Origin: Cytophagales bacterium
Lineage (GTDB): Bacteria; Bacteroidota; Bacteroidia; Cytophagales; Cyclobacteriaceae
Direction: 5' to 3'
DNA: 53,481 bases
Assembly (NCBI GenBank): GCA_022360055.1
Contig: JAKSDO010000051.1
Span: forward strand, 1 to 53,481
Below, piece after piece: positions 494 through 50,476 of this stretch; the stretch's first letter is position 1, and each line of letters opens with the position of its first letter. The notes under the pieces were generated by a model. It did not search any database. It was not told where the DNA came from and saw nothing but the letters and a program-made list of their open reading frames with translations. Position numbers and translations under genes: made by a program.

Positions 494-584
494 AACCGGT
501 AGGACCGGAGCAAATTCAGGACACACACGAGCATGATTGTATTGCTCTGTGTGTCTGCAATCTAGGAAAATATAAACGGATGAA
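494..584 (+). repeat. Dispersed 91-nt element, copy A
   Basis: This is one of four near-identical intergenic copies in the window (others at 17745-17835, 30858-30946 and 50190-50280). It opens with CCGGTAGGACCGG, a 5-bp palindrome around AGG. A longer hairpin follows, in which GACACACA and GAGCA pair with TGCTC and TGTGTGTC around a 9-nt loop. It ends in an A-rich tract and AAACGGATGAA. The ATG inside that terminal motif (580-582) is the likely start codon of the next gene. Copy A differs from copy D at 8 of 91 positions and from copy C at 11. It is either a mobile palindromic element or a conserved RNA leader. Confidence 0.9.
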
Positions 585-5275: not shown

Positions 5276-6923
5276 CAGATATGCCAAACATCCTGTATAT
5301 TTTTCCCCTACAGGTACAAGTCTGAATGCCAAAAGCTGGCAAACAGAGGCCCCGCTTCGAATGCTACTCAACAATCTGAACGCCGAAGTTGCCGAAAATC
5401 CTGACAGACTGGTCGTATACGGCGGCACAGGTCAGGCCGCCAGAAACCGGGAAGCGCTCCGACAAATCATAAAAAATCTTCTGGAATTGGAAGAAGACGA
5501 AAGTTTGCTTGTGCAATCAGGTAAAGCGGTTGGAAAAGTAAGAACCCACCCGGAAGCACCAAGGGTTTTGATTGCCAACAGCAACCTGGTGCCTGCATGG
5601 GCCGACTGGGATCACTTTAATGCGCTTAAAGATCGCGGGCTTACGATGTACGGGCAGATGACGGCCGGCAGTTGGATTTATATCGGCTCGCAAGGCATAC
5701 TTCAAGGCACTTATGAAACTTTCGCTGCATGCGGCAATCGACATTTCGGAGGAGATCTTAGTGGCAAATTGCTCGTAAGCGGGGGGCTCGGTGGAATGGG
5801 AGGCGCACAGCCTTTGGCAGCAACAATGGGGGGAGCTACTTTTTTGGGTGCGGATATAGATCCTGAAAGGATCAAAAAAAGACTTCGGACGGGATATTTG
5901 GACCGGATGAGCTACAGCTACGAAGAGGCCCGGGACTGGGCGCTGGAGGCAAAAAAAGCCCGACATCCAATATCCGTTGGGTTGGTAAGCGATATTGGAG
6001 ATTTACTGGAACAGTTATTAAAGGATAATATCATCCCGGAAATACTAACCGATCAAACATCGGCGCACGACCCCTTGTTTGGCTATATACCGAATACCCT
6101 TTCATTGAAAGAAGCAGAAGAGCTTAGAACTTCTGATCCTGAAAAATATAAGTCCATGTCGCTAAAGAGCATGGCAAGGCATGTCGGATTTATGCTCGAA
6201 ATGCAGAGGAGAGGAAGCAAAACATTTGATTACGGGAATAACCTGAGAGCATTTGCTTTGCAGGGCGGAGAAAAAAATGCCTTCGATTTCAACGGCTTTG
6301 TACCGGAATACATTCGGCCGCTTTTCTGCGAAGGCAAGGGTCCGTTCAGATGGGCGGCCCTGTCCGGAGATCCGGAAGACATTTACACGACCGATCGCGC
6401 ATTAATTGAAGCTTTCCCTGAGAACGGGCATTTAATCCGATGGCTGGAGGGCGCCAGGGAAAAAATTGCCTTCCAGGGATTGCCCTGCCGGATCTGCTGG
6501 CTGGGTATGGGAGAACGCGAAAAAGCGGGATTGATATTTAATGATCTGGTCAGAACCGGCAAGCTAAAAGCTCCGATAGTCATCGGCCGGGACCACCTGG
6601 ATTGCGGCTCTGTGGCCTCCCCGAACCGGGAAACGGAGGGCATGCGCGATGGCAGCGATGCAATATCGGATTGGCCTCTGCTCAATTTGATGTCAAATAC
6701 GGCTGGAGGTGCTACGTGGGTTTCGTTTCATCACGGAGGAGGCGTCGGAATCGGGTTCTCGCAGCATGCGGGGATGGTTGTACTTGCGGACGGGTCCGGG
6801 CGGGCAGGACGTTGTATAAAGCGAGTTTTGCACAACGATCCCGCCATGGGTGTGTTCAGGCATGCCGATGCGGGGTATGATGAGGCCGAGGAAATCAGAG
6901 ATATCTTCAATTTGAAATTATAA
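5253..6923 (+). CDS. hutU: Urocanate hydratase
   Basis: 556 residues, the standard length. It converts urocanate to 4-imidazolone-5-propionate using tightly bound NAD+ as electrophile. NAD-binding signatures are present: [12 protein letters not shown] (54-65) and [15 protein letters not shown] (175-189). The conserved block [10 protein letters not shown] (411-420) carries Cys415, which appears to match the reactive cysteine of the Pseudomonas enzyme, and it is followed by [17 protein letters not shown] (444-460). The start ATG lies inside hutH with a 23-bp overlap and three bases separate its stop from hutI, so all four hut genes are likely one transcript. No anomalies seen. Confidence 0.97.
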
Positions 6924-16340: not shown

Positions 16341-16370
16341 CCGGCAAATGGTCTATAAGTTATTTGCCGG
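16341..16370 (-). terminator. Terminator-like hairpin at the end of the efflux tolC
   Basis: CCGGCAAAT (16341-16349) and ATTTGCCGG (16362-16370) form a perfect 9-bp stem with a 12-nt loop. It overlaps the last codons of the TolC-like gene and is followed on the minus strand by ATTTAGTTAT, a weak T tract. It likely separates the efflux operon from the kinase gene that starts at 16297. Confidence 0.55.
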
Positions 16371-17741
16371 ATATAAATTTCCCGTAACTTTCTTCCAGGT
16401 AGTTACGAGTACTTTATACCGGGCGATGGCCCTGATCTGCTGCACTTTTGCATTCAGCCAGTCCGCCTGAGCGTTTAACAATTCCGTCGTCGTGTTGAGC
16501 CCGACATCGAAACTTGACCGCGTCTCCCCAAGGCTTTCTTCCGCTTCCGCCACATTTTTTTCAGCGATTAGAATCGCTTCGTAGGCCTCTTCAACTTTAA
16601 CTTTTGCACTCAACACTTCCAGGTTGATCAGGTCTGCCGTATTGCTCAATTCCGTTTCTTGCTGCTCGACCTTGAACTGCGCCGCTTTTTGTTTATACTT
16701 TCCCTGTCCCCATTGATAAATCGGTATATTTACCTGTGCCGCTACAGTAGGCCTGAAGGTGACGTTTTCATTTAAATCATCCACATAGGTCCCCATGTAT
16801 TGGAATCCGACGCCTACCTGAGGCAAATAATCCGCTTTCACCATTTTTCTGTCATACTCGGAAAGATCAACTTGTCGTTCCAGAATTTTCAACTCAAAGC
16901 GTTGGACTAAGGCCATCTCCGAACCGTTCGATAAGTCAATCAACCGGATTTTGTCGAGCGAATCATAACGAATACTAAAATCCGTAGTAAGGGTTTTTCC
17001 CAACACCTGGTTTAGATTCATTTTTGCCAGCTTCAATCCATTTCGAGCCATCATTAACTGCAATTCCGCTTCATTTTTCTGAACGCTTACCCGCAGCTTT
17101 TCGCTGGCCGGTTGCAAACCCACCTCAAACATGGACGTCATCTGTCCTTCCAATTCCACCAGCATTTCGATGTACTTCTCGGCCAGATCAATGTTTGCTT
17201 CCACCATGGCCACATTCCAGAAAGCCTGATCGGTCAGCTCAATTACCTCGGCATATTTTAGATCGTACGCCATATGGGCTATTTCCAGCCCGGCCTGTGC
17301 CATTTGGTTTCCCAATTGGATTTTACCTCCGGCATAGATGGGTTGACTGATGTTCAGACCTCCGTACATCAGGGAAAAATGGTCCATTTCCATCGAAGTC
17401 CCGGGCATCCAAACATCACTTTGACCTGTAAAGTCTCCATTCTCGGCAGCTTCCGCACTTTCGGCGGTAGGTAGAAAGCCTCCGGGCATATTAATGCCGT
17501 CCACACCTCGCACATGCATGAGGTTGGCATTGGCATCCATTACCGGCAGGTAACCGGTCCTGGCAGCTTTTCGCTGTTCAAGAACCTCTTGTTTTCTATA
17601 GCCGGCCTTTTTCAACTGCTTATTGTGCTCGACGGCTTGCTTCCTGCATTCGTCCAGCGTTAATGTCTGTTGTGCATGGACACCTTGCGTGGCTATACTC
17701 AAAGCGATAAGAGCGATCAATTTACTTGTGTGAAATTTCAT
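16353..17741 (-). CDS. TolC-family outer-membrane efflux protein
   Basis: 462 residues with a clean signal peptide (MKFHTSKLIALIALSIATQG, cleavage after VHAQ) and the TolC/OEP pattern LTLDECRKQAVEHNKQLKKA at the mature N-terminus. Two long helical repeats follow, and the conserved C-terminal pattern DVGLNTTTELLNAQADWLNA is present. It is the outer-membrane channel for the RND pump encoded just upstream (gap 117 bp, nearly all occupied by repeat copy C). The start codon lies 4 bases beyond the repeat's terminal motif. A second, divergent TolC homologue lies at 23361-24686. Confidence 0.93.
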   Translation of the reverse strand: MKFHTSKLIALIALSIATQGVHAQQTLTLDECRKQAVEHNKQLKKAGYRKQEVLEQRKAARTGYLPVMDANANLMHVRGVDGINMPGGFLPTAESAEAAENGDFTGQSDVWMPGTSMEMDHFSLMYGGLNISQPIYAGGKIQLGNQMAQAGLEIAHMAYDLKYAEVIELTDQAFWNVAMVEANIDLAEKYIEMLVELEGQMTSMFEVGLQPASEKLRVSVQKNEAELQLMMARNGLKLAKMNLNQVLGKTLTTDFSIRYDSLDKIRLIDLSNGSEMALVQRFELKILERQVDLSEYDRKMVKADYLPQVGVGFQYMGTYVDDLNENVTFRPTVAAQVNIPIYQWGQGKYKQKAAQFKVEQQETELSNTADLINLEVLSAKVKVEEAYEAILIAEKNVAEAEESLGETRSSFDVGLNTTTELLNAQADWLNAKVQQIRAIARYKVLVTTWKKVTGNLYPANNL

Positions 17742-17744
17742 TTC

Positions 17745-17835
17745 TTCATCCGTTTATATTTTTTTAGGTTACTGACACACCGAGCGATATAATCATGCTC
17801 GTGTATGTCCGGAATTTGCGCCGGTCCTACCGGTT
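17745..17835 (-). repeat. Dispersed 91-nt element, copy C
   Basis: Read on the minus strand it begins AACCGGTAGGACCGG and ends AAACGGATGAA, ahead of the TolC start at 17741. The second hairpin is kept with compensating differences: the 5' arm carries GACATACACGAGC and the 3' arm GCTCGGTGTGTC, where T pairs with G as a wobble. The element occupies most of the gap between the RND gene and tolC. The terminal ATG of the element here opens only a four-codon frame overlapping the real start. Confidence 0.9.
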
Positions 17836-30857: not shown

Positions 30858-30946
30858 AACCGGTAGGACCGGAGCAAATTTAAGACACGCACGAGCATAC
30901 TATATCTCTCTGTGCGACAGCAAACAAAAAAATATAAACGGATGAA
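30858..30946 (+). repeat. Dispersed 91-nt element, copy B
   Basis: An 89-nt copy that begins AACCGGTAGGACCGG and ends AAATATAAACGGATGAA. It is the most diverged of the four in its middle, with small indels in the 3' arm of the second hairpin. The ATG in its final motif (30942-30944) is the likely start of the oxidoreductase gene that follows. Confidence 0.88.
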
Positions 30947-31931
30947 AATATCTGGAAAGGTTCGGTGGGGAATTATCGGGTGCGGCGATGTGACCGAAGT
31001 AAAAAGTGGCCCGGCATTTCGGAACGTTGAAAATTCCGAATTGGTAGCGGTTATGCGAAGAAACGGCGAAAAGGCGGCCGACTATGCCCGTAGACACAAG
31101 GTCCCGAAATGGTACGATGATGCGGACAAGCTTATTCACGATCCTGACGTAAATGCAATATATGTTGCCACTCCTCCCAGTTCGCATGCAGCATATGCCA
31201 TAAAGTCCATGCGAGCCGGAAAACCTGTTTATGTGGAAAAGCCCATGGCGATGAATGCCGCCGAATGCCAGGCGATGGTAGACGTGAGCGAGCAAACAGG
31301 CGTGCCGCTGTTTGTGGCTTATTATCGCAGGGCACTGCCCATGTTTGTGAAACTTAAAGGTTTGATAGACATGAATGCCATCGGAGATGTAAAAATGATA
31401 AATTTAATTCTTCATTGGCCGGCTAAACCCGAGGAACTGGAGGGTTCGGTGGGATGGCGCGTTGACCCCCGTATTTCCGGTGGCGGTCATTTTCACGATC
31501 TGGCGGCGCATCAATTGGATTATCTGGAATACATTTTCGGACCGATCAAAGCAGCCAAAGGTTTGGCCGCAAATCAGGCCGGATTATACGAGGTCGAAGA
31601 TGCCGTAACTGCAACATTTCAATTTGAGGCCGGCATACTTGGAACCGGTTCCTGGTGTTTTACGGTTCCCGAACGACAAATCAGCGAGGTCACCGAAATC
31701 GTAGGATCAAAGGGCAGAATTTCGTTTTCCTTTTTCAGCAATACGGTGTTGCATATAGAAACCGAGACCATGGTCGAGAATTTTGATGTTCCGAATCCGG
31801 AACATGTACATCAGCCATTGGTAGATCTGGTTGTGAAAGATCTGCGAGGGGAAGGGAGCTGCCCCAGCACCGGGAAGACCGGCATGAGGGCAACAATGCT
31901 CATGGACAACATGGTGGGGAAGCTAAATTGA
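30942..31931 (+). CDS. Gfo/Idh/MocA-family oxidoreductase (cytoplasmic)
   Basis: 329 residues from ATG 30942, which is the conserved ATG of repeat copy B; a GTG start at 30912 would translate part of the repeat and is unlikely. The NAD(P)-binding Rossmann motif VRWGIIGCGDV is at the N-terminus and the conserved catalytic Lys lies in GKPVYVEKPMAMN. A C-terminal beta-sheet domain follows (GGHFHDLAAHQLDY). It has no export signal, unlike the two family members at 46123 and 48545. The substrate is probably a sugar or inositol-like compound, not determinable from sequence. Confidence 0.9.
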   Translation: MKISGKVRWGIIGCGDVTEVKSGPAFRNVENSELVAVMRRNGEKAADYARRHKVPKWYDDADKLIHDPDVNAIYVATPPSSHAAYAIKSMRAGKPVYVEKPMAMNAAECQAMVDVSEQTGVPLFVAYYRRALPMFVKLKGLIDMNAIGDVKMINLILHWPAKPEELEGSVGWRVDPRISGGGHFHDLAAHQLDYLEYIFGPIKAAKGLAANQAGLYEVEDAVTATFQFEAGILGTGSWCFTVPERQISEVTEIVGSKGRISFSFFSNTVLHIETETMVENFDVPNPEHVHQPLVDLVVKDLRGEGSCPSTGKTGMRATMLMDNMVGKLN

Positions 31932-50053: not shown

Positions 50054-50476
50054 GTTGTTTAAATATTTACCTTTTAATAAAAACGAATTAAAAAATTGGC
50101 TCTAATATAGGTACTGATTTTTCATAAATTGTACTACAATGCAAACCTTTTTTCGTTACCTCAACGCGCATTATGTAATTGTCTGCCATTTCATCCGTGT
50201 ATATTTTTTTAGATTGCTGACGCACAGAGAAATATAATCAAGCTCGTGTGTGTCCTGAATTTGCTCCGGTCCTACCGGTTTCATCACACAAAAGCAAATG
50301 TCGATCGGAGGAGCGGCCTCCATGTATTCTCGTAAAAAATAAGGATCCAGGTCACGATAACTGCAAAGAAACCGGAACAGGAGTTTACACTTCGCTTATT
50401 GTTCCGCTGCAACTTGTCGCAGCAGCTTTTTTCTTAGAACTTAAATTCTTAGTCCCAACCGGGATTTTGGATTGAT
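50054..50476. other. Intergenic region between oxidoreductase and fucosidase genes
   Basis: About 423 bp. It holds repeat copy D (50190-50280), and a GCTGC...GCAGC hairpin near 50408-50425 followed by T on the plus strand that may end fucosidase-side transcription only weakly. No ORF is convincing. Confidence 0.4.
50190..50280 (-). repeat. Dispersed 91-nt element, copy D
   Basis: On the minus strand it runs from AACCGGTAGGACCGG to ACACGGATGAA. It is the closest to copy A (8 differences). Its ATG opens an eight-codon frame only; the next real gene (48545-50053) begins 137 bp further on. So this copy is present without directly providing the gene's start codon. Confidence 0.9.

Follow-up and report, generated by a model that had tools for sequence, protein, structure and literature searches.

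The contig JAKSDO010000051.1 of the assembly GCA_022360055.1, from a Cytophagales bacterium of the family Cyclobacteriaceae, was analysed over positions 1 to 53,481, and this whole stretch of 53,481 nucleotides is referred to here as the window. It contains four copies of a short element (A to D), which were found where the initial annotation had placed its four 91-nt elements, with 69 invariant columns in their alignment and a likeness that ends at the ends of the element. The near-identity of the copies held but the boundaries given to them did not, as the natural unit measures 86–91 nt and runs from AACCGG to a terminal ATGA. When the window was searched with the 15-mer AACCGGTAGGACCGG allowing up to 3 mismatches, 5 matches were obtained against 0.79 expected, a number reached in none of 100 shuffles; four of them are the copies and the fifth, with 3 mismatches, is a chance site. 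The copies, all of a family designated F1, and the reading frames next to them are the following.

490–493, + strand: ATGG, the bases directly 5' of copy A
494–583, + strand: copy A (F1, 90 nt), with hairpin 1 at 496–508, hairpin 2 at about 520–555 and the terminal ATGA at 580–583
580–777, + strand: 65-codon frame (MKKGAIIVFGIIVALII...) that begins at the terminal ATG of copy A
16353–17741, − strand: outer membrane efflux (OEP) gene, its ATG 8 nt past the terminal ATG of copy C
17746–17835, − strand: copy C (F1, 90 nt), with the terminal ATGA at 17749–17746 and TTGA directly 5'
30858–30945, + strand: copy B (F1, 88 nt), with the terminal ATGA at 30942–30945 and CAAA directly 5', without an upstream ATGA
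30942–31931, + strand: Gfo/Idh/MocA oxidoreductase gene that begins at the terminal ATG of copy B
50191–50280, − strand: copy D (F1, 90 nt), with ATGA directly 5' and a terminal ATG that opens 7 codons only

The 65-codon frame behind copy A can also be read in phase from the ATG upstream at 490 and has no match in Pfam or NCBIfam; for this small membrane-like protein (472–777) an ORF caller would place the start inside or before copy A. Copy C sits between an AcrB-type transporter gene and the OEP gene, while copy D lies between genes, with the next gene start (50053) about 140 nt away. No Rfam family matched the window at its gathering threshold.

A search of the element against the host genome, as the initial annotation had proposed, revealed many copies, far beyond the four of the window. 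Family F1 comprises about 170–210 copies in the 7.5 Mb genome, since the 15-mer gave 203 matches with up to 2 mismatches (25 for the reversed-pattern control), the hairpin-2 core 212 (control 0) and the exact pattern of hairpin 1 with the ATGA before it 167 (control 0). A second family, F2, follows a like design, ATGA-AACAGGCCATGCCTGAGATAATT...TTTTAAACAG-ATGA, with 63 pattern matches at up to 3 mismatches and none for the control. Most F1 copies were retrieved by the hairpin-1 pattern, exact matches first, and copies without a recognisable right end were removed before ends and start-codon positions were counted. The alignments comprise 55 of 60 copies (mixed alignment A2), 98 of 104 F1 copies (A3, leaving out five of odd length or identical, and L039), 33 of 34 F2 copies (A4, without L098) and 107 of 111 downstream frames (A5, four left out). 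ATGA stands directly 5' of the unit in 137 of 160 copies of this genome, and the unit itself terminates in ATGA in 149 of the 160. The exact upstream ATGA is absent from the remaining 23, window copies A, B and C among them, which counts against reading the units as mobile elements. The ends, AACCGG... and ...TAAACRG, form no terminal inverted repeats, as judged by eye from A3. Units of F1 and F2 are chained head to tail with the ATGA common to adjoining units: of 218 unique copies, 103 of F1 and 4 of F2 have no recognised neighbour, and the arrays include 15 of the type F1-F2, 14 F1-F1 and 10 F2-F1 as well as longer chains up to F1-F2-F1-F2. One recombinant copy (L072) has a left half of F2 and a right half of F1. 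Individual F1 copies also vary in length, with part of hairpin 2 duplicated internally in one (L061, 1501–1613) and about 20 extra bases within the hairpin-2 loop in a 110-nt copy (L043). Among 157 distinct copies of 80–95 nt no two are identical, the identity to the nearest neighbour having a median of 92% and a maximum of 98.9%, so the main burst was not very recent, a point that counts against the mobile reading.

The terminal ATGA is in most cases the start of a gene. Of the 218 copies, 156 end an array, and 151 of these could be judged, 5 lying too near the end of the locus. In 109 of the 151, a frame of at least 80 codons begins at the terminal ATG, compared with 0 and 7 for the other frames; 22 more have the ATG of an ORF of at least 80 codons within 150 nt, some of them by chance, and the last 20 have no long ORF within 150 nt, which counts against start-codon placement. 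A strand bias toward gene starts, named at the outset as a test of a leader, is thus strong, the 109 copies all having the same orientation relative to their gene. For comparison, among the 48 ATGAA sites of the window that lie in non-coding sequence or at gene starts, 9 are at gene starts (10 of 49 with the gene of copy B), based on 39 genes and their starts chosen by hand from the ORF list, so random non-coding placement, with insertions at coding sites merely purged, would be expected to put about 20% on start codons. Lys occupies position 2 in 106 of 111 downstream frames (a few of which overlap in arrays), which fits ATGAAA as the target, and 15 of 20 copies from relatives likewise open at least 80 codons. 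The initial annotation, in defining the ends, had missed that the element terminates in a start codon, and with it the second family and the tandem arrays. The occupied genes, among them those for thymidylate synthase, isocitrate/isopropylmalate dehydrogenase and HisS, are diverse: their 107 proteins fall into 119 Pfam families, each found in 4 at most, a spread that speaks against a regulon.

Comparison with relatives reveals the corresponding sites without the element. The gene behind one copy (L013) matches hisS (TIGR00442, E 5.9e-62) over its first 238 residues and hence below the full-length cut-off; it was found in this genome and in 22 of 22 relatives, and F1 and F2 are absent from all 22 of the relatives' loci. 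Among congeners, G003 and G005 for example, a short leader leads directly into ATGAAAAT... (16 relatives viewed), and the present genome has a leader, similar by eye, that terminates in ATGA; the element comes next and then a second ATGA, which is the gene start. Four Rfam matches at the hisS copy all lie far below the gathering scores and were judged to be chance. The gene of copy B lacks the element at 8 of 8 other loci checked, including that of G002 (L243), which has the same ATGAAAAT start; the G002 leader, ...ttgacaaaagaaag-ATGAAAAT, resembles ...ttgacaaa-[element ending ATGA]AAAT of the present genome, where no ATGA lies upstream. For a third gene (behind L003), matched in 6 of 15 genomes, both this genome and G001 carry an element at the start codon and four of the five relatives (G002, G003, G004 and G006) do not. 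Since the two elements differ and their upstream flanks have no likeness by eye, they may represent independent insertions. The target signature, which the initial annotation had suggested looking for as target duplications, is a fixed ATGA at both ends and not a random duplication.

Within the genus, the exact pattern gave 12 matches in G001, 2 in G003, 3 in G004 and 5 in G005 and none in G002 and G006, and it was absent from the other 32 genomes searched. A looser DNA search was positive in 6 of 39 genomes, the sixth being represented by one array in G015, of another genus of the family, and a covariance model run on 148 genomes of the order under stricter filters, by which weak matches are lost, found the present genome only. 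The array in G015 (L031, contig C88, 1480–1700) consists of an F1-like unit followed by a different unit ending TATAAACGGATGA, and it adjoins the start of a lipoprotein gene that is SusD-like by eye. As a lone array in another genus it possibly reflects a transfer or a binning error; no further array was present in the 371 kb of G015 examined. A related pattern occurs in 13 named stretches, from one Bacteroidia, two Cyclobacteriaceae and one Labilibaculum metagenome assembly. The Labilibaculum stretch (L230, JADGFH010000047.1, Labilibaculum sp., 5905–5931) holds ATGAAACCGGCATGACCGGAGCAAATT without the remaining element and is probably a terminator-like chance match. In the relatives, a scan of the sequence before ATGA[AG] starts in parts of the genomes (371 kb each of G015 and G003, 245 kb of G006, 89 kb of G002) turned up no 12-mer at more than three sites, compared with up to 19 in the positive control of 126 kb from loci of the present genome. 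Viral contigs, plasmids and phages gave no match to the element.

Two conserved hairpins had been proposed for the window copies, and both are supported. Hairpin 1 reads CCGGT AGG ACCGG and hairpin 2 GACACACA-C-GAGCA / TGCTCTGTGTGTC, and folding compared with shuffles gave z-scores of −3.56 for copy A and −2.71 for copy C. As RNAalifold returned hairpin 1 only for A2, perhaps because hairpin 2 differs in the relatives, hairpin 2 was counted on copies of the present genome, with the structure taken from the fold of one of them. Over 98 copies 85.7% of its cells are paired and 8 of its 13 pairs show a double change; one inner pair (columns 39–51) is unpaired in 51 copies. For both hairpins together, 89.0% of cells pair compared with at most 46.0% when the structure is slid, and the covariation score is 0.084 against 0.072 for shuffled alignments, none of 500 reaching it, and at most 0.060 for slid structures. 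The double changes give weaker support, since the 8 pairs compare with 4.8 in shuffles and are reached by 23 of 500, and since slides of −3, +1 and +2 give 14 to 17 double-change cells against the 14 observed, so that this part of the support from covariation is modest. The conservation of hairpin 1 in A3 is inflated, the copies having been retrieved by the hairpin-1 pattern itself. A set free of this bias came from the exact matches to the hairpin-2 core (52 of 53 places). Of 51 copies that hairpin 2 alone had identified, one CCGG arm is retained in 48 and the other in 50. The closing pair of hairpin 1 is T-A in 97 copies, C-G in 39, C-A in 19, T-G in 7 and C-C in 1. The conservation of the F1 hairpins fits a folded single strand of DNA or RNA. 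RNAalifold also supports hairpin 1 in F2, where compensatory changes were not seen and the consensus is no more stably folded than shuffled sequences (z −0.51, with DNA parameters).

From the flanking upstream ATG a short uORF enters the element. Among the 187 copies with such an ATG, 113 uORFs stop upstream of the gene, 20 stop at the TGA of the terminal ATGA, 52 fuse in frame and 2 run past out of frame. The shared right end, TATAAACRGATGA, suffices for such an outcome in every frame: one frame is in phase with the ATG, another meets a TAA 4 nt before it and the third meets the overlapping TGA. In many copies a stop comes earlier; among the near ones the commonest positions are 12 or 18 nt (F1) and 22 nt (F2) ahead of the ATG, and a considerable share of the F1 copies have a uORF ending 39 to 86 nt before the ATG of the gene. 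This layout suggests an element built, or selected, to hand ribosomes to the gene in whatever frame they would arrive. Substitutions at codon positions 1, 2 and 3 number 244, 143 and 217 in F1 (93 copies) and 52, 45 and 58 in F2 (30 copies), and coding selection on the uORF was rejected, there being no third-position excess in either family. The original statement that the element has no coding potential is therefore right as regards a coding signature in the substitutions but overlooks the short uORF that runs in from the flanking ATG. A −7 promoter motif of Bacteroidota is TAnnTTTG; it is not enriched upstream of the copies (6 of 137, compared with 5, 6 and 3 in control intervals), which leaves general transcription through the element without support and was counted against the mobile reading.

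No autonomous copy and no transposase with F1 or F2 ends was found in the loci examined in this genome and its congeners. The present genome (G000) has four Y1 matches, two partial frames (109 and 91 aa) and two RAYT-like genes named by eye from sequence.

G000:C116:2678–2944: partial IS200-type TnpA frame (L068)
G000:C49:44684–44815: partial IS200-type TnpA frame (L071)
G000:C265:21651–21872: RAYT-like Y1 gene (L069)
G000:C59:7437–7739: RAYT-like Y1 gene (L070)

The L068 fragment carries DHVR at a motif position where a DHVH-type motif is usual. Each of the two RAYT-like genes is flanked by its own palindrome family, distinct from F1 and F2, and they were rejected as partners of F1; their loci contain no hairpin-1 sequence and only right-end-like 11-mers with one mismatch. 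Congeners carry long Y1 frames whose flanks show other repeats, and the 7 loci of five congeners inspected, among 29 matches listed, contain no F1 ends. Nor were longer autonomous copies bounded by F1 ends present in the loci examined, and the 5 hairpins without a nearby right end have no later right end either.

Among known mobile DNA, PATEs are non-autonomous derivatives of IS200/IS605-type single-strand transposons. With elements of the IS200/IS605 type, F1 and F2 share subterminal hairpins without terminal inverted repeats, a single orientation and insertion 3' of a fixed tetranucleotide that stays at the left flank (ATGA 5' of the 137 copies, and the hisS empty site); however, a Y1 (HUH) TnpA gene with the same ends was found at none of the 4 loci of this genome and 7 congener loci. 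They differ in that their left and right tetranucleotides are identical, which permits tandem arrays, and in having the start codon as target. IS608 inserts 3' of the tetranucleotide TTAC, kept at the left flank, and the guide/cleavage pairs given for the IS608 type are AAAG/TTAC and GAAT/TCAA (PMC5934647). A guide rule drawn from those two pairs predicts ATNT for ATGA, and the consensus reads, by eye, ATTC in F1 and ATTA or ATTG in F2. Single-strand transposition 3' of a tetranucleotide, as described for IS608 (PMC5934647), would be the closest known mechanism. The two families also recall systems in which an insert is tolerated within genes. A resemblance at the level of translation exists to byps, mobile bypassing elements of yeast mitochondria, which are short inserts inside genes that the ribosome skips; like them, F1 and F2 would be short mobile inserts rendered harmless at the translation step, but byps are bypassed within genes whereas F1 and F2 supply a new start codon. 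Rickettsia palindromic elements are likewise short palindromic mobile elements tolerated in unrelated genes (PMC10969869), but they lie in frame inside ORFs, whereas F1 and F2 lie at the start codon, mostly unfused, and not in frame inside ORFs.

Several other explanations deserve consideration. That the element is a coding module, an in-frame N-terminal extension comparable to those Rickettsia elements, is hardly credible: an open frame of 30 codons runs through the consensus from the upstream ATG, which like the 52 in-frame fusions would agree with it, but lengths of 87, 88, 89 and 91 nt break the frame, 133 of the 187 uORFs terminate before or at the gene ATG, and the third-position excess expected of a coding sequence is missing. 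Very unlikely, too, is a REP-like palindrome spread by a RAYT (TnpA-REP). The layout of hairpin 1, ATGA + 2 nt + a 5-bp palindrome, does resemble that of REP-Mb, described as GTAG + 2 nt + a 5-bp palindrome (PMC8266576), and a short palindrome after a conserved tetranucleotide, high copy number and arrays are features common to both (PMC8266576, PMC2817692). The presence of two RAYT-like genes in the genome is also in keeping with this explanation. However, the tetranucleotide is ATGA and not GTAG, the unit is about 90 nt long with two hairpins and sits on start codons, for which REPs are not known to have a preference, and neither RAYT-like gene (L069, L070) is flanked by the palindrome of F1, each having different palindromes of its own.

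A cis-regulatory RNA leader, that is a riboswitch or protein-binding leader spread and kept for regulating the downstream genes, is an unlikely explanation that nevertheless accounts for several observations, namely the fixed orientation in front of genes, the pairing of hairpin 2 kept through changes, and the CCGG arms kept despite a divergence of about 8% between nearest neighbours, which could be purifying selection in place, although hairpin 1 including its loop is no better conserved than the rest of the element (12.6% non-consensus). Against it, the downstream genes are unrelated, hisS does without the element in all the relatives, and the tandem mixing of F1 and F2 through ATGA, together with the ATGA at both ends, are insertion signatures; the absence of an Rfam match at the gathering threshold in the window points the same way. 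As far as tested, the ordinary readings (an Rfam family, a coding signature, a known REP) fail. The choice originally offered, between a mobile palindromic element and an RNA or regulatory leader, named the right two options, and of these the evidence is more in favour of a mobile element, which after insertion becomes the leader of the gene.

The reading preferred here, to which we assign a probability of roughly three in four, is that F1 and F2 are non-autonomous mobile elements of about 90 nt that insert directly 3' of ATGA start codons, preferably ATGAAA, and regenerate the start codon. It is based on the copy number, the ATGA at both ends, the placement on start codons, the chaining through ATGA, the empty sites, the covarying hairpins and the lack of bias in gene function. 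An element would enter directly 3' of the ATGA at a gene start codon, in one orientation, and with the ATGA at its own right end every insertion would regenerate the start codon of the gene entered. Mobilisation would be brought about by a trans-acting enzyme cutting at ATGA, and the process would most resemble the single-strand (HUH/Y1) transposition that takes place 3' of a fixed tetranucleotide. Within the element, the displaced native ATG would then open a translated uORF of no more than about 30 codons; ribosomes could reach the gene by in-frame fusion, after an upstream stop or through the overlapping TGA of the ATGA, a hand-over that would make the insertion nearly neutral for expression. 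The enzyme, the mobility and the restart of translation are what we infer from the arrangement of the sequences. We are evenly divided on whether F1 and F2 constitute an undescribed class of selfish DNA specialised for start codons, which would target ATGA, rebuild the start codon on the far side and, with a right end that stops or rejoins ribosomes in any frame, have around 200 insertions tolerated in one genome, also at housekeeping genes, and give that genome as many new uORF leaders. No description of a small element that targets start codons was found in the openly licensed literature.

Mobile elements usually survive by inserting between genes. If the preferred reading is true, landing on a start codon and repairing it would be a new way of being harmless, and the elements would represent a natural tool to place leaders on many genes at once. 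The system would make testable how bacteria with little dependence on Shine-Dalgarno sequences restart translation and raises the question of which enzyme reads ATGA. For annotation, the start codons behind F1 and F2 copies are likely misassigned, and in such genomes many genes may carry a start codon and N-terminus annotated up to about 30 codons away from the true one.
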